From a virus, in the IMG/VR virus record IMGVR_UViG_3300038301_000365, positions 1 through 31,458 of that record: DNA of 31,458 bases. The stretch is one strand, 5' to 3'. The translations under genes and the position numbers were made by a program. Shown here piece by piece: positions 2,829-31,458 of the stretch. Under the pieces are notes generated by a model. That model saw nothing but the letters and a program-made list of their open reading frames with translations, did no database searches and was not told the origin of the DNA. Position 1 is the stretch's first letter; each line of letters begins with the position of its first letter.

Positions 2829-4975
2829 TACAACGCTCCTCCAAGGCTAAACTTTATTCCGTTAACGACAAGGGCGATAATGATCACATCCTGGTTTGGC
2901 GTCCCATCGTCGGTCAGTTCGACACGGACAAACAAAACGTCGCCTTCGTAATATGATGACGCATCGAATGCGGCGAACTCCTGGTCAATCGCGTAGTCAT
3001 CATATGTTGCGGGAAGGACCGCCCCCGCAGGCACTAGGTTCTGGGCGTCAAACTCTGCGATACCGGTCGTTAAGACATCCGTGTTTGCCAGTATTCTTGG
3101 GGTTGGATCGATACCGCCTGCTGGGTCTGCCACCAGATTCCCAGCGACCTCTGCCGTGTAGACAGACATCGTAAGCTCCGGCGCAACAGTGATAGGGGTT
3201 GACCCATCAACCTTGTAGACGACGGACATGTCCAAGGGATGGGCCGTGCAGATGCCTTCAGGGATTGCGAATTGGAAGTAAATCGCATCACCCGTTTGAT
3301 TGAGCCTGCTGTTCGGCATTGGGTGTGTCCAACCTGTCGGAGTCCCTCCAGACCCAACGTCAACATTGGCCAAAACAACCCCGCCGCTTTCACCGAAAAC
3401 ATTTCCACTGGCAGAAAGGGTTCCGCGCCACTTCGCAAGACCGGATGCTGTTTTTCGCCCTCTCCTATTTATTTGTGAAGTGGAAGGCGTCAGCCAGGTC
3501 CGCTCAAATGTGGGAAGCACAGATGGGGCAGAAATGATTTCGACGCATGACCAATATGCCGTTACTGCATCCACTGACGTGGTTGCCCACGTTGAATCAT
3601 CGTCAATGCCGTAATGCAGCTCCTCCTCAGAGGATGCGCGAAGAAACACATCATTCGCATATCGGTATGATTCTTCTTCGCTTACGGCTTCGACGCCGAC
3701 ATTCTCCCACGCGGCTCCATTCCAAATCTTAAACTCGTAAGACCCACCCACCCCAGCGGCGCTTTGGGCTATTTGAAGTCCCCAGTGCTTAATCACTGAA
3801 GCTGTATCCTGTCGCAATGACCCGAAATATATCCTGTGTCCTGCGGCAGTTCCCTGAAACGTGATCGTTGACCCAGAAATACTCGAAGCGTCTGCCGTAA
3901 CATCCACGAGGCCACCAGTGCCTGTGGCGTTCGAGGTGACGACTTTTATCCCGTCCGCATATGGCGAACCGCTTCCAGCGTACACGCTAGATCCCTTTTC
4001 TGGGAATCCAAAAACGGAGTCAACACCGAATGTCCTTTGTTGCGAAAAGCTGGTGTCATTTTGCTCTCGGAAGAAACTCAAGCCAAAGTCAGAGTTCAGC
4101 ATCGCAGGGGGAAAGTTGTAAGCCGTTTCATGATTTGCAGTAATGCGAACAACTGTACCGGTGCCGAGAAGGGCTGGGTCAGCCAGTACGGCAAACGCCG
4201 ACTGGTCCATCTTCCCACCGAGGACAGAAAGGTTTATCCCATCGCTGACTATGTGAATACTGTTTGACAGGTCAAGGGTATTGATTCCGAATATCAAAGT
4301 TGTCGAGGTGCCATCGCAGTAGACGCCATCGGTAACATTCGGTGATCCGACGTTAAAGTCGGCAATCTGAAACCTGCCAGCCGATTCCCCTCTCACAACA
4401 GCGTCAATCGTTCCAGGACCGGGAGGAACATGTATCGACTCAACCGCAATAACGCCGCTTTCGTTGACCATACACGAACGCAGGCCGCCAGTGTCAAAAC
4501 GTATCTCAGCTCCGATAATCTTGCCGCCGCCTATTTTTCGCAGCCCGTTCCCTTGGCCCACAGCCCCATCGCCGTGAAACTGGCAGTTGTATATCGATGA
4601 TGTACTAGAAACGCCACCATCAAACAAGACACCCGATAATCCCAGGGTGTCCGGGCAGTCAACAGCAAATCCCTCAATCTGCGAGTCTGCCGAAAGGGTT
4701 ACAATGTCCGCAACAGCCGATACGTCTCCGATGCGCGTAACCTGGTATCCGCCAGAGCTTTTTAGGGTTGTCCCAGCCGGCACAGTGATCCCAGACTCAG
4801 CGTAGGTACCTGGATATACCAAGATCTCATCACCAGACACAGCAACAGCCAAAGCTGCGCCAACCGTCAAAAACGGGTGCAGAGGGTCGCCAGACGTACC
4901 GCTGGCATCATTGCCGTTGACGGCGTCTACCCAGACGACGTTTCCGGTTCTTTGTAGCAGGCTGGCTGTGGGCAT
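2828..4975 (-). CDS. Putative tail spike/fibre protein with N-terminal parallel beta-helix-like region
   Basis: The protein has 715 residues. The N-terminus (about 12-80) reads VVWVDAVNGNDASGTSGDP, then PFLTVGAALAVA and ILVYPGTYAE. This is the typical opening of pectate-lyase-like right-handed beta-helix proteins (DUF1565-type). The helix may run to about residue 280. The middle and C-terminal parts are beta-rich, with no catalytic motif I can identify. Many phage spikes with this fold bind or cleave surface polysaccharide, but enzymatic activity here is unproven. It has a good SD (AAGGA, eight bases before ATG). It follows the hub/LamG gene after 16 bases and overlaps the next fibre gene by one base. 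Confidence 0.75.
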   Translation of the reverse strand: MPTASLLQRTGNVVWVDAVNGNDASGTSGDPLHPFLTVGAALAVAVSGDEILVYPGTYAESGITVPAGTTLKSSGGYQVTRIGDVSAVADIVTLSADSQIEGFAVDCPDTLGLSGVLFDGGVSSTSSIYNCQFHGDGAVGQGNGLRKIGGGKIIGAEIRFDTGGLRSCMVNESGVIAVESIHVPPGPGTIDAVVRGESAGRFQIADFNVGSPNVTDGVYCDGTSTTLIFGINTLDLSNSIHIVSDGINLSVLGGKMDQSAFAVLADPALLGTGTVVRITANHETAYNFPPAMLNSDFGLSFFREQNDTSFSQQRTFGVDSVFGFPEKGSSVYAGSGSPYADGIKVVTSNATGTGGLVDVTADASSISGSTITFQGTAAGHRIYFGSLRQDTASVIKHWGLQIAQSAAGVGGSYEFKIWNGAAWENVGVEAVSEEESYRYANDVFLRASSEEELHYGIDDDSTWATTSVDAVTAYWSCVEIISAPSVLPTFERTWLTPSTSQINRRGRKTASGLAKWRGTLSASGNVFGESGGVVLANVDVGSGGTPTGWTHPMPNSRLNQTGDAIYFQFAIPEGICTAHPLDMSVVYKVDGSTPITVAPELTMSVYTAEVAGNLVADPAGGIDPTPRILANTDVLTTGIAEFDAQNLVPAGAVLPATYDDYAIDQEFAAFDASSYYEGDVLFVRVELTDDGTPNQDVIIIALVVNGIKFSLGGAL

Positions 4976-4991
4976 TTCTTATTCCTTCTGG

Positions 4992-7900
4992 TTAATCGTT
5001 TTCTGAGAATTTTATAGATATGTAAGATAGATCGCCAAAGTCTGAGCCTGTTGCACTGATGTCCATATCCGTCGAAGGATAAGCAAGGAGTGCTGTAGGA
5101 ACAGACCAAAGAGAAAAAGAAAGCCTGTCGCCCCTGGTAAGAAGAAGCCCAGGCATGTTAATAGAAATAGGGTTTCCAGGCAACGCCCTGTTTAGTGCTG
5201 CGTTGTCTCCAATCGTAAAGGTTGTCGATGTTTGAGCAAGCGCCGTCCCAAAAACCGTAAGAAGCCCTGTCGGTCCGTACTGATTATTGATCGACGCCAA
5301 AACTCCACCCGTCCAAGATGGAGGAGGAGGTATTATGGTGCTAGTGATTGGGGGTACATGACTGTTGAAAAGAACCTGTAGAGATCCACCTGGAAACACT
5401 ATATCCTCCCAGTAGTCCCAGGGAATAGCCTCGCTGGGCGTTATTCCGACATATATAGCTCCTGACACATCATAGTACCCCGTAGCTGGCACATCAAAGT
5501 AAGTCCCATTATGGTTCCCTGCCGCTGTTGACGTATCGTCTACCCAATTTCCCCCGAAATCATAGGAGCCAGCCGTAGAGACATTCGATGCCCTAATGTT
5601 TAACCCGCCACCAGCCTTTACGTTTGCACTGAAATCGGTTGACACCCAGTCACCCGTCGTTTGAAGCGTCGTTCGGCTTCCATACGCATTCCTATAAAGA
5701 GAAACACTGTCAACTATGACCTCATTTGCGATGCCGCCAAAGTTTGCCCCCATGTTGATCTGAGCATAAACAGCGCCGGCAACACCGGAAAGGCCCTGGT
5801 ATCGATGTGTATGCCACTCTGCCGACCCTCCAGGTCCAGGTATAAGAGCCTCAAGAGGGCCGGATGTGCTAACCACGTTAAACGCAGCGTCAAGCCATTT
5901 AACGAAAAAGCTAGGGCGTGACGAGGTGTTTGCCCCCGCGATTCTCTGCCATGTAACCTCCAGGCAGTATGGCACGTTTGCGTCGCCATCTAATGGAATT
6001 AAATCCGAATCCACCCGTGGGTTTGTTCCACCATCCTCGTGCATGGCTATTGCCAGAGGGCCAGTCAGCGATGTGGATGTAGCCCTTATCGTATCGTTAT
6101 CCCAGATATCACCGGTATCCATATCCCAAGATGTGGGGGGATTTCTCTTCCCATTGGTCCAGGTAGAAAAGCTGCTGTTCCTTACTTGGACAAATTTCCC
6201 ACCTGACATCCAATTCGTATTCTCCAGAATGGACTGCATGGGGTTTGCGCGTTGAGTTTTCTGCATCGCATTTTGCGCCTGCATTGGCGTATTGGCGGGA
6301 TTGTTTGCAAGGCGAGACTCTATCGACAGCCATCTTCTTGACCCAAGGCCTGGTTTGCCCCTTACGTCAATACTTGTGGACGCATCCTTGCCAAACGTAT
6401 GACTAACTGATGACACCGCGAGATACTGCCTCTCAGTATAAAGCTTTTCATTTGGGGCAAACCCTATGATGTCATGTATGTCTATTTCAGGCGTTAACTG
6501 TATTTTTATTGAGTGGGTAAACTCAGGCTCAGAGAGGTCTGTCAGCATTCGATACGCCATCTCTGTGGCTTCCGTGCCAAGGTCTATATGGCTCGTGCTG
6601 GACTCCTGCACCTCCATAAATCTTCTTCCGTATTTATCTCTTGAGTCTTCGTCCTGAATCATCACATAAGCTGGAAGTCTTTCACCATCAACAGCACTTA
6701 CTGCCGAATTCGATATTTTGCTGAAGTTCGCAGGAAAAGGTATGGAGGCAATGGCACTGTTAACATTCGCCTCCTGGGTCCCTGCTGCTCCCCCAGTCTC
6801 AGTTGAGTCATAAGAAACCCTGACGACATTCCTTATTCTTTGAAGCGCAACCTCGGCAGAGGAAACAGAAACAATCTCATCTGGAGAGATAACAATCGCT
6901 GGCGTCGTACTATCAGCCTCTGGCTGGTAAAGGGTAAGTTTGAAGTCATCAAGAGCATCGCTCCACTTATATTTTACATCATGACCAAACTGCCCGGCCA
7001 GTGTTCTCAGGGCAACGATCACAGGCTCACGCCTCTGTTCAAATGACTTTATTGCCCAGTTTATTGACGGATCGTAGGTAAGGGTTGGAGACTCATAGGA
7101 GCTAGTTTTAAAGTCAGAGCTGTTGTCATCAAGAATCTGCTGCATTTCGGTAGCTACGAGAATCCCAACGTCGCTGCCATACTCCAGCTCCTCCTCTATG
7201 AAGGTATCAACGAGAACTCCACCGTTATCTCTGAAGTTTACCTTTACCTCGTCTGAACCCCAGTTGAAAATATCAATCGTGCCATCAAGAAATGACCACA
7301 GCTCTCTTCCGCTTGCCGTGATTCCAAGAGGGGTTCTCGCTGCATAAATCTTTATTCCCCTTCCAGCGTCAAGAAATCTTGGCCCTGCAATGCTGGACGG
7401 GTCTGAAAAGTTTATTTTTGTGTCATTTTTCAGGTAGGCAACAGATAGATTCTCCTGTTCGCGAGAGAGGCTAAGGCTTCCCTGGACCACTGCGTCATCT
7501 GGGGATGTGGAGACAGACAGGGAAGAGACAAAATCAACGCCACTGATATCCGTGGTGTCAACGTAAACCTCCTCTGAGGAGAGTCCTGATGTTTGAGTTT
7601 GTCCGTTATCTATGTAAACCTTGAGATCATCCCCAGTGTGAAAGGTCTTAAGGAGTCCCCTTTGAAAGTCTTCCATTATTTCGTCTGCTGAAAGAACATT
7701 GCTCCAGGTGTAAATGCCAGCCAGTTCAACGTCATCGAGAAGGTATGCAATATTTCCACCGCTCCCTCTTATTCCACCAACCTGCCAGTATGCGTCAGCA
7801 CCACCACCTGGCGCATTTAAGCTCCCGCTTGACTCTATGAATCTTCCATTTATGTAAATGTCGTATCTTGCGCTTCCCAGAACGTCGTTTCTTGTGATGC

Positions 7901-8441
7901 AGATGTAAAACCACTTGTTCACAGGATAATTATAAGCAGTGTTATAAAATGCGTTGTTCGAGGTGGGATATTCATGTCCAATGTTAAAGTTTCCAGTAGC
8001 CTGAAGCCGAAGCGTAAACAGGTAGTTAGATGCAAGAGACTCTGTATCCCACTCGCTCACAAGAGCGGCAATGTTTCCTGTGTCTGGCGCTGTCTTATTT
8101 ACCTTTACCCATGCCGCAAACGTAACCTCAATCTGGTCAAATACGGCAACAGACGCAGCATCACCATCCCTGGCGACATTGGTTGCCTCCAGAGCCATCC
8201 CCTGAAACGCTGCTTCCTTAATGAACTTCCTCCCCATCCCGACGGGTGTGTCCACGATGAATGGGTCAGAAGAGCCAAACCCAGAATTTATCTTTAGGTC
8301 CATGTTGAATGCCTGAGACACGCCAGGGGAAGACCAAACACAAGGCGAATTTACCTCGTTCGTTTCATCTAGGTACCAAGCCCTGAATGAAGAAGGTCTA
8401 ACCTTTGGGTGTGAACCCATCCTGTGTGAAGGCATTCTCAT
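4992..8441 (-). CDS. Large tail-tip protein: N-terminal LamG-like domain, central hub-like region, C-terminal carbohydrate-binding-like region
   Basis: The protein has 1149 residues. Residues about 30-265 look like a LamG/concanavalin A-like domain: VTFAAWVKVNKT, PVNKWFYICITRN, YDIYINGRFIESSG and a DDVELAGIYTWSNVLSADEI ending. Residues about 290-690 resemble the baseplate hub or tail-associated proteins of siphoviruses (LRTLAGQFGHDVKYKWSD, VALQRIRNVVRVSYDST, DIHDIIGFAPNEKLYTERQYLAVSSVSHTF). Residues about 720-880 look like a carbohydrate-binding module-type jelly roll. Residues about 890-1149 are a C1q-like beta region. It probably forms the tail tip and carries host-binding domains. Translation is coupled to the upstream 78-codon gene (TAATG). 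A second in-frame ATG two codons on is possible. Domain calls are by eye. Confidence 0.75.
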   Translation of the reverse strand: MRMPSHRMGSHPKVRPSSFRAWYLDETNEVNSPCVWSSPGVSQAFNMDLKINSGFGSSDPFIVDTPVGMGRKFIKEAAFQGMALEATNVARDGDAASVAVFDQIEVTFAAWVKVNKTAPDTGNIAALVSEWDTESLASNYLFTLRLQATGNFNIGHEYPTSNNAFYNTAYNYPVNKWFYICITRNDVLGSARYDIYINGRFIESSGSLNAPGGGADAYWQVGGIRGSGGNIAYLLDDVELAGIYTWSNVLSADEIMEDFQRGLLKTFHTGDDLKVYIDNGQTQTSGLSSEEVYVDTTDISGVDFVSSLSVSTSPDDAVVQGSLSLSREQENLSVAYLKNDTKINFSDPSSIAGPRFLDAGRGIKIYAARTPLGITASGRELWSFLDGTIDIFNWGSDEVKVNFRDNGGVLVDTFIEEELEYGSDVGILVATEMQQILDDNSSDFKTSSYESPTLTYDPSINWAIKSFEQRREPVIVALRTLAGQFGHDVKYKWSDALDDFKLTLYQPEADSTTPAIVISPDEIVSVSSAEVALQRIRNVVRVSYDSTETGGAAGTQEANVNSAIASIPFPANFSKISNSAVSAVDGERLPAYVMIQDEDSRDKYGRRFMEVQESSTSHIDLGTEATEMAYRMLTDLSEPEFTHSIKIQLTPEIDIHDIIGFAPNEKLYTERQYLAVSSVSHTFGKDASTSIDVRGKPGLGSRRWLSIESRLANNPANTPMQAQNAMQKTQRANPMQSILENTNWMSGGKFVQVRNSSFSTWTNGKRNPPTSWDMDTGDIWDNDTIRATSTSLTGPLAIAMHEDGGTNPRVDSDLIPLDGDANVPYCLEVTWQRIAGANTSSRPSFFVKWLDAAFNVVSTSGPLEALIPGPGGSAEWHTHRYQGLSGVAGAVYAQINMGANFGGIANEVIVDSVSLYRNAYGSRTTLQTTGDWVSTDFSANVKAGGGLNIRASNVSTAGSYDFGGNWVDDTSTAAGNHNGTYFDVPATGYYDVSGAIYVGITPSEAIPWDYWEDIVFPGGSLQVLFNSHVPPITSTIIPPPPSWTGGVLASINNQYGPTGLLTVFGTALAQTSTTFTIGDNAALNRALPGNPISINMPGLLLTRGDRLSFSLWSVPTALLAYPSTDMDISATGSDFGDLSYISIKFSEND

Positions 8442-8688: not shown

Positions 8689-10986
8689 CTACCTAAATAT
8701 TCTTCTTTTCCTGCCCTTGTTGAATACCACACTAAGCTCATGGTATGGAACTTCTCTTCTCCAAAACATAATGTTCTTTACTTTTCCATCCATTGGCTCC
8801 TGTGTTCCACTTCCGTACACGCCTATCTTTGTGTTCCCCTCTTCATAGGTAAAATGGTCCTCAAGCCATCCTAGACCCGTATTGTTTCCCAGGTACAGCA
8901 GCTCGTCAGAAGCGCCTGACGCGCCAACATTCCCAAACAGCTTCATTGACCCTGAACCCTGGGGGGCCAGGTTAAATGAAGCCGCAACAAAGTACCACTG
9001 GTCAAGGGCAACGTGGGCAGTCCCAGAGCTTCCGCCAAATGCACTGGGGTCAGATGGCGAACTCCTAACTGTGGCAAATATTGGATACGGATTAAGGTTG
9101 ACTCCAAATCCAAGCCGAGTCAGACCCGCTGAATCCACGCATGAGAATATATAATTTCTGCTCGCTGGGAATGAATCGAGATAAAACCATCCCGCTATGG
9201 TTACCTGTGATAGCCCAGCCAGGTCTACGCAAAAGTTTGGCGAACCTGGAACAGGTGGGCTTGCGTGAGGAAGGTCAAAGCTGGGATAGGGGCTTCCGCC
9301 ACCGCTTGAAAACTCATAGGAAAAGCCATACCCATCGACAGCATCGTACCCTAGAACGGGATCGCTAGAACCCCCTCCAATAAAATCATATCCAGAGCAG
9401 GGGTCAATCAAGGCAGGGGGGCCAGAGTCATTTAGGAACTTAGGCTCAAGCAAAAAGTGAGAATCCGGCTTTGGTATTCCCTCTTCCCTTCTTGGCGAGA
9501 CCTCCTCAAGGACGAACGCCACGGATCTGTCATTTGGGCTTGAGGCATGGGTGACATATGTTTCGTCCTCCACTTTGCCCAATGTCTCTATCGCCTTCTT
9601 GCTCCCAATTACGTCACCTGAAACATTTACCCTTGGAAGAGAGGAAGACGGCCTCTCAGACGGAGGAACAAAGCTGTACCCAAAGTACGCCTCGTTCAGG
9701 TGATCAATTATGTCCTGCCTTGCAAGCTCTGAGTTGTAGACCCTAAAGTCATCGATATAGCCAGCCATGGAGTCAACCCCCAGGGGATCTCCAAGGTAAA
9801 GGGGCGTCACGGGCGTCCCAGGGGTCAGTATGGTAGTCCCATTCGTCCCCTGTGAGGCTCCATTTATAAAAAGCTCAATCCTGCCTGTTGATGCAACTTT
9901 TTGATATGTAAAGCACACATGGGTAAATTCCCCAGCGGCAATGGGCAATATCGAATCAACAAGCCTTGTGGATGCACCCGCCTCATAGGTGACCCTAACG
10001 CTGCCAGATGGGAGAATGCTTATCTTCCAACCTATATTTGGCATATTGCTGAAATGTTCAGCCACCTTCTGGATGCTGACAAGTATGGCTGTCGGGTTAA
10101 CCCAAAGGGAAACTGTTATGGTCTTATCTGTATTAAGCCGAATAAGGTCCCCTGAAGATGTTGTAAACTCAACATAATCGCTAGGCTGGTCCATATACAG
10201 AGAGCCGCTGCCGGACTTTCTTGTTGGGTCGCCAGCCTCTGCTGTCCCTGTTGGGGTCCCAAAAAGACCACCCACCCTGTCGGCAAAATCTGTCTTATAA
10301 TCAAAGGGACACTGCATCACGCAGTTGTTTGCTGTTTGGTGCTTGTATGTATCCAAGGCAAAGGTAGAATCGATCTTGAATGGAAGAACAACTAGATCAT
10401 CCATCCTCATTTCGGCATCTGGAAAATCCGCCGACGATATAACAATTGAACCCTGAGAAGACACAGAGACAAAAGAGGTGTAGGACACACTTGCGCCATT
10501 AATATACTGGGTGCCATCTGAAGTCTCAATGTACTGGTCGTACACTATGACAGGCGGAGACGCAGCGGGGTCTGAGTCTGTAGAATTGTAAACCCAAACA
10601 ATTACGGCCCACTTGTCTGGTGGAAGCTCAAGGCCAAAGCTAAGGTCTCCAGATATGACAGCACTGCCGAACCCGAAGCACGATCTGCTTTGCTCTACTG
10701 AAATGTTTGAGAATGTGGCAATGGATGCGGTATATCCAGAGTCGCTCCATGCGTCATTGTCAAATGGGAAGTGATGACCCCTGCCAGAAACAAGACCTTC
10801 AACGGCATCAGCGATCTCAGGTGACTGAAAGAGCATCTCTCCCTTCCAGGACCTTGGTATCATCCGACGGCTTATTATGTTTCTGTTCGTAAATGATGGA
10901 CCAAGATTGCCAAACTGAGTGGAGGTTTCAGACATCCCTCCATTCACAATGGGAACATTCCATCCATTTATTGAGAAAAAAGACAT
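8689..10986 (-). CDS. Distal tail protein paralogue carrying two LamG-like domains
   Basis: The protein has 765 residues. Residues 1-215 match the neighbouring 322-residue protein in pattern: IADAVEGLVSGRGHHFPF versus IADNFIHLINGQGHAVRF, DKWAVIVWV versus DKWTVILVV, and MDDLVVLPFKI versus VSDFIMLPYVM. Residues about 225-440 form a LamG-like domain (KTITVSLWVNP, GEFTHVCFTYQ, RIELFINGAS, GYIDDFRVYNSELA). Residues about 445-500 return to the paralogue pattern (LPRVNVSGDVI, RSVAFVLEEVSP). A second LamG-like domain follows at about 530-755 (QVTIAGWFYLDS, LDQWYFVAASFN, GKVKNIMFWRRE). LamG folds usually bind glycans or proteins, so a receptor- or glycan-binding role at the tail tip is likely. It starts seven bases after the paralogue's stop. 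Confidence 0.75.
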   Translation of the reverse strand: MSFFSINGWNVPIVNGGMSETSTQFGNLGPSFTNRNIISRRMIPRSWKGEMLFQSPEIADAVEGLVSGRGHHFPFDNDAWSDSGYTASIATFSNISVEQSRSCFGFGSAVISGDLSFGLELPPDKWAVIVWVYNSTDSDPAASPPVIVYDQYIETSDGTQYINGASVSYTSFVSVSSQGSIVISSADFPDAEMRMDDLVVLPFKIDSTFALDTYKHQTANNCVMQCPFDYKTDFADRVGGLFGTPTGTAEAGDPTRKSGSGSLYMDQPSDYVEFTTSSGDLIRLNTDKTITVSLWVNPTAILVSIQKVAEHFSNMPNIGWKISILPSGSVRVTYEAGASTRLVDSILPIAAGEFTHVCFTYQKVASTGRIELFINGASQGTNGTTILTPGTPVTPLYLGDPLGVDSMAGYIDDFRVYNSELARQDIIDHLNEAYFGYSFVPPSERPSSSLPRVNVSGDVIGSKKAIETLGKVEDETYVTHASSPNDRSVAFVLEEVSPRREEGIPKPDSHFLLEPKFLNDSGPPALIDPCSGYDFIGGGSSDPVLGYDAVDGYGFSYEFSSGGGSPYPSFDLPHASPPVPGSPNFCVDLAGLSQVTIAGWFYLDSFPASRNYIFSCVDSAGLTRLGFGVNLNPYPIFATVRSSPSDPSAFGGSSGTAHVALDQWYFVAASFNLAPQGSGSMKLFGNVGASGASDELLYLGNNTGLGWLEDHFTYEEGNTKIGVYGSGTQEPMDGKVKNIMFWRREVPYHELSVVFNKGRKRRIFR

Positions 10987-27521: not shown

Positions 27522-28940
27522 TTAAACGAAAAAGAACTCTGAACCATCATCTAGGTTCCCGACAGCCATAGCAACTGCATCGGCCTCATCTGGTGATTTT
27601 ATCCCTCTTTTTCTCATGTCATCTTTGGACTCAATCTGTATTAACCCCCTGGAATTTATCTTCCATCTCATAGAAGTCAACTGGGAGGTGAGCATAGAGT
27701 CTTCTGGGAGTGCAATTGGCTCATCTGACTCAGGATCGAGCCTTTCCCTTAGTCTCCAGTACCATTCTGCCCTTCTATTTAGGTATCTTTCATTGTTTAG
27801 GGGTCTCATTCCTCCGCGCATTTCTATTGCGACTGAACCCATTTGCTCTTTCAGTCTGTCATAAACACCTGCCCCCAGGCCATCTGCGTCGATTCTGCAC
27901 TCCAGTATGTTTCTGTGAGTTCTAAGAAGATGCGCTATGTGTCCAGTTGTTTCCATTGTATCCCCCTTTGGAAACTTTATAAGCTCTTTTATTCCATGTT
28001 TCTGATGAAACAGCGCAGCAACAGTGGAATCTTCTCCATATCTTGCTACGTCAACTGAGAGTATCTCTGGGTTGTTCCACTCCAGATTTTCAAGAGCTTC
28101 GTACCTGGCGTTCGCCTGCTCGACCCATGAAAGTGGGACCAAAGAAGCGTCTGAGGTGTCTGGGAACTCGCCCAGGACGCGAGACTTCCACATTGGAGTA
28201 TCTCTCCCCCATTCAGCCTTTCGTTCATCTACCCACGACTTTGTACATAACCCTGGTATTCTGTCTTCTCCCTCAATCACATTCGGAACATCAAAAGCAG
28301 AAATGTGAAACTTTGCAACGTCATCCCCTGCTGAGAACATCTTATAGAATGGTCCTGCCGCCTCTGTAGGGTTTCCAATGCAGACAAGCCTATCTTCTCT
28401 GCCAACAAGAACGCCCAAGACTGCCTCCCATATTTCATACCCTATGCCTGGAGCCTCATCAAATATGGCGAGTATCCCCCCAGCCGAGTGCCATCCCTGA
28501 AAGCTTGTGGGGTCATCAGTGGAGAACCCTATGCAGAGCCAATCATCATCGATAACAAGCTTAGGTGCTTTCGGTAGGATATTTCCCCCAAGCCCTGAGA
28601 AGCCAAGCTTATTTAGACTGATAACGGCAGATGCGTAGGACTTTCGTATCTCTTTCCATAAAAGCTCAGTAACCTGCCTCCCAGTCGGGGCAGTCGTGAT
28701 CACAGTGGACCTCACCCTTGTAAACAGCCACCACAGGGCAATCTGTGCCGCCAAGAAAGTTTTACCTGAGCCATGGCACGACCTAACAGCAACTCTTCTA
28801 TGGTCTGTCAGGCTTGTGGCGATGTCTCTTTGTTTTTGCCATAGCTCTACTCCGAGTATTTCTGTGATGAACTTGCAGGGATTGTTCCTGTAGGAAAGCA
28901 TCAAGTCTTTTTTTGATATTTCCTTATTCTTCATCTTCAT
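27522..28940 (-). CDS. Terminase large subunit
   Basis: The protein has 472 residues. The N-terminal ATPase has a Walker A SCHGSGKT (54-61) and a Walker B ILAIFDEA (156-163), with the TTAPTGRQV motif at 82-90. The C-terminal RNase H-like nuclease starts with SVDVARYGED (Asp297), followed by IDADGLGAG and a final DEADAVAMA near the C-terminus, giving likely metal-binding acidic residues. It drives DNA into the prohead and cuts the concatemer. The start overlaps the end of the methyltransferase gene by 17 bases. An ATG two codons later is also possible. The gene lacks an obvious small-subunit partner in the window. Confidence 0.95.
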   Translation of the reverse strand: MKMKNKEISKKDLMLSYRNNPCKFITEILGVELWQKQRDIATSLTDHRRVAVRSCHGSGKTFLAAQIALWWLFTRVRSTVITTAPTGRQVTELLWKEIRKSYASAVISLNKLGFSGLGGNILPKAPKLVIDDDWLCIGFSTDDPTSFQGWHSAGGILAIFDEAPGIGYEIWEAVLGVLVGREDRLVCIGNPTEAAGPFYKMFSAGDDVAKFHISAFDVPNVIEGEDRIPGLCTKSWVDERKAEWGRDTPMWKSRVLGEFPDTSDASLVPLSWVEQANARYEALENLEWNNPEILSVDVARYGEDSTVAALFHQKHGIKELIKFPKGDTMETTGHIAHLLRTHRNILECRIDADGLGAGVYDRLKEQMGSVAIEMRGGMRPLNNERYLNRRAEWYWRLRERLDPESDEPIALPEDSMLTSQLTSMRWKINSRGLIQIESKDDMRKRGIKSPDEADAVAMAVGNLDDGSEFFFV

Positions 28941-30861
28941 CCTCGCCCTTCATCCAGACAAGAATATCTTCCTCGCACTTGCCCCTGTCTGTTCCTATGT
29001 TTTTATAGGAGCAATGCACTGCCGCCTGCGATGCCGCCTTGTCAGTGTTCCACGTTTTAAGGAAAATGTTCCCTCCCTCATGGTCACGCGATGCCGCCTC
29101 TATGACCATCAAGAGAGAGGAGAGGTCAGTGTAGGCGACTCTCTCTATGAGCAGATCCCCTTTTTTGTAGTTGAACCCTGGCATTCTGGTGGACTTCCCA
29201 ACGACCCTTACAGATGCCGCTGCCTGCAACTTCCCTTCTGGGTCCCTTACGATTTTCACCTGGCCTTTCCTTATTAGGCTTTGCCCGTCTGTTTTTCTGA
29301 ATGAGCTGTCTGGACCCATTGAGTGTCCCTTGTCGCTGCTCGTAAAAAGCTCATGCAGTTCTACGTCGCCCACCTCTGGCGCTGCCTTCTTTTTTGCTGC
29401 CTTCTTTTTTGGCTTTTCCTGCTTGCCTGGCTTTCTGAAAATATACACAGGCTCAAATGATTCTTGATGGTCTTGGTCTTGCCCGTACCCTGTTGTTATT
29501 GGGAACTCCCATGTGTCTTCATGGATAAACCCAGCCTCTATGGCATCATCAACCACCCACCTGGAAAGCTCTATAATCTTATTGTTGATTCTAACGTCTG
29601 CGATGTTGACGGCAGAGATGCACCCAGGCTTAAGAGCCTCAAACTGTAGCTTCAGCATCTTCTTGAGGAAACCATTTCTCCAGTCCTCTGGTTTTTTATA
29701 TCTAACCCATGACTGGGTTTTATCCTTAGAGTAAATCTCCTTGCAGAAATATGGAGGCGACGTAAACGCAGCATCGCAGGACTCTTTTATTTGCGACGCA
29801 TCATAATCCTCAGCCGGGATATTGCTAAGACGCGCCTTCCTGTCCCACCCCATGTCTTTGGCGAGCTTCGTATTTGCCTCATGTGTTGGCACGTTGGGGT
29901 CTATGCCTATGTACTTATCGATGCACCCTGACGCTATCGCGCCGACTAGCCTTCCTCCGTACCCTGTTGAGGTATCCAGCACGACAGATGAATCACTGGG
30001 ACATATTCTTCTGTAAACATAACAGGCAAACCCAGGACGAAAATTTGCGGCAGCCTGAGTGCCACGCACCATTGAAAGAATCCCTCTGAATGTGCCTACA
30101 GTATATTTTGACTCAGTAAGGCAAATCTCCAACGCCCTGTGAAGTCTGTCATCACTCTCGAAGCTGCTTAAGGGAGACTTCTTATTTTTTGCATGAGAAG
30201 CATACCTATGGCTATGGTAGCTATCGGCAACCTCATAGGCCGTATTTGTCTTCTGAAGTTTGTCGAACTCTGTATTGGCAAGTTTCGATATTAAATATTT
30301 ACACTCCCAAGCAGGCAAGGACGGATAAGGAAACCCAGCATTTCGCCAATAATGCGTTGCGTCATCGAGGACTTCTTCTTCTGAGAATGGCTGTTTGTAT
30401 TCTGCGAGCTGTGGCGCATCTGTGTTGTCGCCTTCTTTTTCCTTTGGAAGGAACTCATCAAGAAGGAGTTCAGAAAACATTTCTTCATCGAATGCCGATA
30501 TTGAATCCAGAAGATCATCTAGCTGATTGTTAAAGTCACCAGAGATATGCGGAGAGTTAAGCGCAATGTTTAACGCCTTCTCTTCTTCTTCACCCAGGTC
30601 CACCCATACGACTGGGACTTCTTCATCAGTTGCAACAGACTTAAGGGCATCTACTCTTTGGTGTCCCCCTACGATTCTGTTGTTTCTTTTGTTGACTACG
30701 ATTTCTTGAACGACGCCAAATCTCTTAAGGCTTGACTTTAAGCCTGTCATGGCAGCCTTTGAAATTTTACGAGGGTTATATGGGGCGGCAACGAGGTCAG
30801 AAAGGCTTGCCATTCCTCTTTCGTGTAATGGAAATGTATCGACAGGTTTATCTACTTGCAT
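28924..30861 (-). CDS. ParB-like / DNA methyltransferase fusion with extra C-terminal domain
   Basis: The protein has 645 residues from ATG 30861. AAGGGG seven bases upstream supports this start over a frame beginning 28 codons earlier. Residues about 15-110 are a ParB/Srx-like domain (PYNPRKIS, FGVVQEIVV, RIVGGHQRVDAL). Residues about 150-480 are a class I methyltransferase: SAM-binding motif I VVLDTSTGYGGRLVGA (293-308), IGIDPNVPTHEAN, and catalytic TSPPYF (367-372), typical of N4-cytosine or N6-adenine amino methylation. A Lys/Ala linker (KKKAAKKKAA) follows, then residues about 505-640, an unassigned alpha/beta domain weakly like a GNAT fold. It probably marks phage DNA against host restriction. 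The target site is unknown. It is the first gene of the late block. Confidence 0.85.
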   Translation of the reverse strand: MQVDKPVDTFPLHERGMASLSDLVAAPYNPRKISKAAMTGLKSSLKRFGVVQEIVVNKRNNRIVGGHQRVDALKSVATDEEVPVVWVDLGEEEEKALNIALNSPHISGDFNNQLDDLLDSISAFDEEMFSELLLDEFLPKEKEGDNTDAPQLAEYKQPFSEEEVLDDATHYWRNAGFPYPSLPAWECKYLISKLANTEFDKLQKTNTAYEVADSYHSHRYASHAKNKKSPLSSFESDDRLHRALEICLTESKYTVGTFRGILSMVRGTQAAANFRPGFACYVYRRICPSDSSVVLDTSTGYGGRLVGAIASGCIDKYIGIDPNVPTHEANTKLAKDMGWDRKARLSNIPAEDYDASQIKESCDAAFTSPPYFCKEIYSKDKTQSWVRYKKPEDWRNGFLKKMLKLQFEALKPGCISAVNIADVRINNKIIELSRWVVDDAIEAGFIHEDTWEFPITTGYGQDQDHQESFEPVYIFRKPGKQEKPKKKAAKKKAAPEVGDVELHELFTSSDKGHSMGPDSSFRKTDGQSLIRKGQVKIVRDPEGKLQAAASVRVVGKSTRMPGFNYKKGDLLIERVAYTDLSSLLMVIEAASRDHEGGNIFLKTWNTDKAASQAAVHCSYKNIGTDRGKCEEDILVWMKGEDEDEE

Positions 30862-30911: not shown

Positions 30912-31028
30912 ATGTGTTCACACTTGGTTTTTCCAGGGTACACACTTCGAGCCGGTGAAAAAGAGTACCCGATCTTCTTCAAAAGTCAAACCAATGAAGA
31001 AGATATGGAAGTGCAAAAGCTGCAATAA
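30912..31028 (+). CDS. Doubtful 38-residue ORF
   Basis: ATG 30912 has a fair SD-like AAAGGA four to five bases upstream. The product is MCSHLVFPGYTLRAGEKEYP and 18 further residues. It overlaps the next small ORF in another frame by 35 bases. I recognise no family. It is kept because the SD is better than that of the neighbour, but it may be a chance frame or a short leader peptide. Confidence 0.35.
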   Translation: MCSHLVFPGYTLRAGEKEYPIFFKSQTNEEDMEVQKLQ

Positions 31029-31113
31029 GATCATTTTGGCCACTGAAAACGAAAAAAGAATGGGTAACAATTGCAAACCTATATCCAAGCCCCAGTCAGA
31101 GAAGAAATCTTAA
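30994..31113 (+). CDS. Small CxxC (possible zinc ribbon) protein
   Basis: This is a 39-residue product starting MKKIWKCKSCNKII, with a third Cys in MGNNCKP. It is strongly basic. CxxC followed by one more Cys suggests a small zinc-binding protein like many phage early proteins, but the fourth ligand is not clear. No good SD is seen. An ATG at 30889 in the same frame would add 35 residues but also lacks an SD. It overlaps both neighbouring ORFs. The Cys pattern is the main reason to keep it. Confidence 0.4.
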   Translation: MKKIWKCKSCNKIILATENEKRMGNNCKPISKPQSEKKS

Positions 31114-31283
31114 GCCTGCATAAGGCAGGAGTGGGACCCATGTCCATAGCTGTACGCCTGAACTTACAGGCATACCATGTCAGGGTAATACTCTCCCAGA
31201 AGCCGCACCCTCTGACCAAAGAGCCTATTAATCCATTTAACCGGAGCTTTACAGCAGACGAGTACGTAACGAGAGGAAGGTAA
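31071..31283 (+). CDS. Small helix-turn-helix DNA-binding protein
   Basis: The product has 70 residues if it starts at TTG 31071. Residues about 10-42 fit a helix-turn-helix: REEILSLHKAGVGPMSIAVR then LNLQAYHVRVIL. This is the 'I..L...G.....IA..L......V..IL' pattern of resolvase/sigma-region-4-like HTHs. An ATG at 31140 has a better SD (GGAG, eight bases) but would cut the first helix, so the TTG start is preferred with doubt. The C-terminal 25 residues are polar. It could be a phage transcription regulator. It overlaps the CxxC ORF by 43 bases and lies seven bases before the next gene. Confidence 0.6.
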   Translation: MQTYIQAPVREEILSLHKAGVGPMSIAVRLNLQAYHVRVILSQKPHPLTKEPINPFNRSFTADEYVTRGR

Positions 31284-31290
31284 GCGTAAA

Positions 31291-31458
31291 ATGAAAGACA
31301 TCAAAGCCCTCACAGAAACGCTATATGATATGGAGATCAAGACAACAGAAGAGCAGCTTGAGGTTGTCAGGGAGATGATGGACACAAATATGGATCAAAT
31401 ACTTCTGCTGGCGCAAGAGAACGGGTTCGCCACCACTGAAGAACCTTTATCTGTAGAG
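31291..31458 (+). CDS. Hypothetical protein, 5' end (cut by right edge)
   Basis: 56 codons from ATG 31291 are open to the edge: MKDIKALTETLYDMEIKTTE and so on. The visible part is acidic and helical (EEQLEVVREMMDTNMDQILLLAQ), possibly a coiled coil. An AGGAAGG lies upstream at a somewhat long spacing. It is probably co-transcribed with the HTH gene. No family is recognised. Confidence 0.65.
   Translation, partial: MKDIKALTETLYDMEIKTTEEQLEVVREMMDTNMDQILLLAQENGFATTEEPLSVE

Follow-up and report, generated by a model that had tools for sequence, protein, structure and literature searches.

A phage ParB-methyltransferase protein with a predicted GNAT-fold tail that seems to lack the CoA-binding loop

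A ParB-methyltransferase gene next to the terminase

The window analyzed here, that is, the whole 31,458-base stretch of an IMG/VR virus record that ends at position 31458, carries on its negative strand a long gene (28924..30861) in which the open reading frame, Pfam and a full-length AlphaFold2 model delineate a ParB part, a methyltransferase, a linker and a GNAT-fold domain. The frame is open from the ATG at 30861 to the stop at 28924 and encodes 645 amino acids. By eye, a GGGGA stretch lies 5 nt upstream of this ATG, and an alternative in-frame start, the GTG at 30945, lies further upstream and would extend the protein to 673 amino acids. Past this gene come, in order, the terminase large subunit gene (27522..28940, negative strand), the start of which overlaps the end of the ParB-methyltransferase gene by 17 nt, and then the portal, protease and major head protein genes. 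On the other side, a small helix-turn-helix-like open reading frame is transcribed divergently (31071..31283, positive strand).

The ParB N-terminal region comprises residues 1 to 150 (30412..30861, negative strand) and contains a Pfam ParB_N match (PF02195, residues 19 to 97, E value of 3.3e-6) above the family cut-off. Against the PHROGs families, the ParB part matched phrog_498 and phrog_620 strongly, the best phrog_498 stretch covering residues 18 to 173 only, while the middle of the protein matched phrog_12517 weakly. The methyltransferase region spans residues 160 to 478 (29428..30384, negative strand). It is marked by a Pfam N6_N4_Mtase match (PF01555, residues 363 to 493, E value of 1.1e-6), a motif I-like DTSTGYGGRL near residues 296 to 306, and SPPYF at residues 368 to 372; TSPPYF is invariant in all 12 aligned relatives, and in the alignment of relatives the AdoMet motif comes first and SPPY second. 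NCBIfam and PADLOC assigned ParB-type and type II methyltransferase labels, plus one weak ketoarginine methyltransferase match. In a VIA structure comparison, the best matches of the methyltransferase were class I methyltransferases (Z up to 18.5), headed by TrmN/Trm14/Trm11-type tRNA enzymes (Z of 17 to 18.5). Enzymes of this type methylate an exocyclic amine. We infer that the middle part is an exocyclic-amine methyltransferase, acting on N6-adenine or N4-cytosine; its location in a phage and its fusion to a ParB head suggest that the substrate is DNA.

A Lys/Ala-rich linker (residues 479 to 498; 29368..29427, negative strand), delimited by its sequence and by pLDDT values below 50 at residues 481 to 495 of the full-length model, connects the methyltransferase to a C-terminal domain of approximately 140 amino acids (residues 499 to 638; 28948..29367, negative strand). 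The first-pass annotation had described a ParB-methyltransferase fusion with a further domain behind a Lys/Ala linker, and both parts of this description are borne out, the former by the two Pfam matches and the latter by the linker and domain boundaries. Phage ParB-methyltransferase fusions (phrog_498 and similar; Bce_0392) share with the window protein a ParB head and an amino-methyltransferase and often lie near terminase genes; however, the known fusions examined stop at the methyltransferase, whereas the window protein adds a GNAT-fold tail. In Bce_0392, the ParB-methylase of Bacillus cereus, the ParB domain nicks DNA, as stated in PMC5512222, which also describes GNATs in phage polyvalent proteins. 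Within the partial texts that make up our literature sample, no ParB-methyltransferase-GNAT protein was found described.

Fold and cofactor site of the C-terminal domain

The final 140 residues of the window protein matched no Pfam family at E values up to 10, and PHROGs yielded no match to the C-terminal part either. Three low-scoring hits were set aside: a PDB sequence match of the domain profile (E value of 0.31) and a Pfam match of one of the three domain members to a Borna virus family (E value of 0.011) were taken as chance, and a match of the L003 domain to phrog_6026 (E value of 0.02) was too weak for use; a search of six records for this family gave no match. The fold was assigned by structure prediction. 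An AlphaFold2 model of the domain, computed from a three-sequence input (pLDDT 74, pTM 0.67), has the element order helix, β2, β3, hairpin, β4, α3, β5, α4, β6, β7 (strand names are our own), and the same elements reappear in the full-length model, which was computed from a different, 12-row alignment (pLDDT 70). The classic first strand of GNATs was not seen; residues 499 to 511 form a helix in the full-length model. When the domain model was compared with the PDB by Foldseek, 40 matches had E values of ≤0.001 (best E value of 6e-5), and 49 of the 50 PDB rows listed are titled GNAT, acetyltransferase or Nat complex, the exception being 7ypv, the title of which does not say. VIA-align gave Z scores up to 10.2, with nearly all listed rows titled acetyltransferase, and many of the named matches among viral structure models are acetyltransferases. 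Two rows among the viral models are 'internal virion protein A' of other phages.

According to these models, the third domain has a GNAT fold. The strand-helix order initially read from the letters (LLIERVAY strand, SSLLMVIEAASR helix, IFLKTW strand, helix) is seen in both AlphaFold2 models despite their different alignments, and the GNAT idea, which had been put forward as weak, proved right at the level of the fold, as judged by the element order and the acetyltransferase matches of Foldseek and VIA. With canonical GNATs of the RimI/Ard1/PaiA type, the domain shares the order of helices and strands and the Foldseek and VIA matches; unlike them, it lacks both the Q/RxxGxG/A loop and a match to a Pfam GNAT HMM. 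T7 gp13 (Pfam PF11090) is a phage protein with a diverged GNAT-like fold. In contrast to the fused window domain, gp13 is a stand-alone internal virion protein, and the likeness is supported here only by the two 'internal virion protein A' rows from other phages.

In working GNATs, the CoA pyrophosphate loop Q/RxxGxG/A lies between β4 and α3. In both AlphaFold2 models of the window domain, DSSP reduces this junction to two residues (578 and 579; 29125..29130, negative strand) without such a motif; in the full-length model, residue 577 is the last of β4 and residue 580 the first of α3. A pattern search of the C-terminal 150 residues in the window protein and in that of L003 likewise found no Q/RxxGxG/A. 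Both models are only moderately reliable, and so short a junction may be an artifact of the prediction. Nevertheless, the domain seems to have lost the CoA-binding loop and, with it, would probably have lost CoA binding itself. Because this cofactor loop seems to be missing, the tail more likely serves to hold or guide the protein than to modify DNA a second time.

As described in part of PMC7824862, proteins of the Mom family and other GNATs are phage DNA modifiers, and Mom of phage Mu (PF25680) has the GNAT superfamily in common with the window domain. The more specific suggestion of the first-pass annotation, a Mom-like domain, is not supported. Neither Pfam Mom nor any other GNAT family matched the domain, while Mu Mom as a positive control matched PF25680 at 2.4e-75. 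The motifs HY(S/T) and ELxR, taken as the residues invariant in an alignment of 10 Mom proteins, were likewise missing when the same 150-residue C-terminal stretches of the window and L003 proteins were searched by pattern. In the Mom proteins, approximately 10 residues separate the ELxR strand from the next helix (as read from the alignment, no Mom model being used), versus 2 in the window domain. Profile-profile comparison of the domain with Mom by hhalign gave no match (probability of 0.1) but had little power, the query profile having a Neff of 1.5. Aligning the domain, Mu Mom and T7 gp13 with MAFFT (three sequences) produced a meaningless result, which was discarded. On the motifs and the HMM, membership of the domain in the Mom family was rejected.

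Distribution, conservation and the slot beside the terminase

The domain occurs in four IMG/VR records, namely, the window, L001 (87 % identity in the domain), L002 (100 %) and L003/L008 (45 to 46 %). When 3,443 open frames from 44 loci were searched with the domain HMM, only proteins of these four records scored above the threshold. Scans of viral records with the domain or its alignment returned no records beyond the same three, a phage-record search for domain relatives returned none, and genome-contig scans with the ParB-methyltransferase alignment and with the domain alignment returned no further relatives. A plasmid match to the domain (E value of 2) lies inside a catalase gene and was considered chance. 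The domain profile matched none of 12 related records, in a search run without a positive control. The scan with the whole-protein alignment yielded 39 loci with related methyltransferases; proteins were read from 30 of them, and 28, all but L001 and L008, are without such a domain. Methyltransferase relatives at approximately 40 % identity stop directly after the core. Except for L021, the relatives in the 12-row alignment with a complete N terminus carry ParB. In five records (L032, L035, L036, L038 and L042), more than one open reading frame matches the methyltransferase, and in L022 and L024 (6924-8945) the methyltransferase relative appears, by eye, to be fused to an N-terminal LAGLIDADG-like homing endonuclease stretch.

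Between the window and L001, dN/dS is 0.055 for ParB, 0.024 for the middle part plus methyltransferase and 0.096 for the third domain, within which it is 0.041 for residues 501 to 577 and 0.214 for residues 578 to 640; because dS is high in several comparisons, these ratios are rough. They argue that the third domain is under purifying selection. The recurrence of the domain in three further IMG/VR records and the ratio of ~0.10 against L001 rule out a chance open frame, and on this evidence 28924-30861 is a genuine open reading frame. Compared with L003, the window protein is 90 % identical in the methyltransferase stretch 363 to 478, 62 % in the first half of the domain and 27 % in the second. 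Identical residues are frequent in α1 (11/13), α2 (7/9), the β3-β4 hairpin (12/16) and β4 (6/8) and rare in α3 (2/13), β5 (2/6) and α4 (1/9). The substrate-side half thus appears to be kept while the CoA-side half (α3, β5, α4) drifts, on thin evidence because there are only three distinct domain sequences. The kept half is rich in Lys and Arg (13 K/R versus 6 D/E in residues 512 to 577), which would suit contact with DNA or a partner.

In all four domain-bearing records, the gene runs directly into the terminase large subunit gene. In the domain-less L009, L011, L014, L016 and L017, the next gene is small-terminase-like, as judged by eye and confirmed by PHROGs for L014 only. In L017, a GIY-YIG-like endonuclease frame (7275-7913, by eye) was also observed between the terminase and the next structural gene. 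Among seven terminase relatives of 62 to 64 % identity (L058 to L064), a methyltransferase gene immediately precedes the terminase gene in six, while the sequence of the remaining one breaks off at the terminase. In one of them, the sister phage L062, the slot enzyme (3439-4998) is a ParB-methyltransferase matching phrog_67, the ParB part of which is 49 % identical to that of the window protein over 128 amino acids, whereas the remainder has no meaningful match. It has no GNAT domain, and no gene lies between it and the terminase; the small terminase gene is located in a divergent operon (phrog_4102, E value of 8e-13), beside a homolog of the window frame 31071-31283. Within the window, up to its end, no small terminase subunit was recognised. 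From this comparison, the modification slot of these phages retains the ParB head and exchanges the methyltransferase, and the GNAT-fold tail is present only in the window lineage. Computation thus shows the GNAT-fold domain as an optional add-on.

Possible roles of the three-part protein

The explanation we favor, to which we give about an even chance, is a late-region self-methylation protein of the phage, the GNAT-fold module of which is accessory, probably does not acetylate, and serves to place the enzyme on DNA or a partner. The ParB-fold head would contact DNA or a nucleotide, the middle part would methylate an exocyclic amine and thereby mark the DNA of the phage itself against restriction, and the diverged GNAT fold, devoid of the CoA pyrophosphate loop, would anchor the enzyme to DNA or to another protein. 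Against this explanation, some phages carry a Mom-type GNAT gene as a neighbor of a ParB or methyltransferase gene, which fits a chemical role just as well. A two-step base modifier, in which the methyltransferase and a Mom-like GNAT act on the same or neighboring bases after ParB has brought both to DNA, would agree with the predicted fold and with the 10 Mom regions examined: Mom adjoins a ParB gene in Appa, is one gene away from it in StevieBAY, and in P12002L and Alsa_3 has a DNA methyltransferase gene as its immediate neighbor. These four regions were found in a sample hand-picked from a spread list, 9 of the 10 with 300-base flanks, and therefore provide no statistic; all they show is that these three functions can come together in phages. 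Given the lack of Mom motifs and of a Mom HMM match, a β4-α3 junction far shorter than in Mom, the poor conservation of the CoA-side half, and the negative but weak hhalign comparison, we regard such a modifier as distinctly unlikely. The missing CoA loop and the CoA-side drift also speak against ordinary acyl transfer as the second step of the original proposal that the protein methylates and further modifies DNA. The related scheme of a hypermodifier in one polypeptide, in which ParB places the protein, the methyltransferase acts on the base, and a GNAT fold without the usual CoA site adds a second group from another donor, has a low probability in our estimation.

The remaining alternatives take the tail away from base chemistry. 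Strictly speaking, the tail may be the part of the methyltransferase that recognizes its target, for which the basic character of the conserved half would speak. However, the relatives of approximately 40 % identity end after the core, which therefore does not need the domain, and specificity may already reside in residues 160 to 285, so this assignment appears unlikely. A contact of the domain with the terminase, or its use in place of the small terminase subunit, would tie methylation to packaging and would fit the gene order, in which the domain-bearing gene abuts the terminase gene in four of four records while a small-terminase-like gene intervenes in domain-less relatives. But L062 lacks the intervening gene without having the GNAT domain and keeps its small terminase gene elsewhere; replacement of the small subunit is therefore unlikely and was largely rejected, and the terminase link as a whole seems slightly more doubtful than the two-step modifier. 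Finally, the tail may be a passenger acetyltransferase, carried by the methyltransferase, that acts on a host protein such as RNA polymerase or a restriction enzyme. Phage GNATs acting on host proteins, e.g., Rac of phiKMV-like phages, are described in PMC7824862. Two points stand against such a passenger, namely, that the tail is fused to a protein acting on DNA and that the CoA loop seems to be missing; we hold it to be very unlikely.

Whichever role applies, the protein is a new combination of known parts, namely, ParB, a methyltransferase and a tail with a GNAT fold. A catalytic tail would represent a new DNA-modification architecture; a noncatalytic one would exemplify a GNAT fold put to use for binding and would caution against naming every phage GNAT an acetyltransferase. 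Elsewhere in the window, we observed two large proteins with Laminin_G_3 or concanavalin-like domains (4995-8441 and 8692-10986, negative strand) and a weak BclA_C/C1q-like match (1350-2828), all of which are probably tail or receptor-binding parts.
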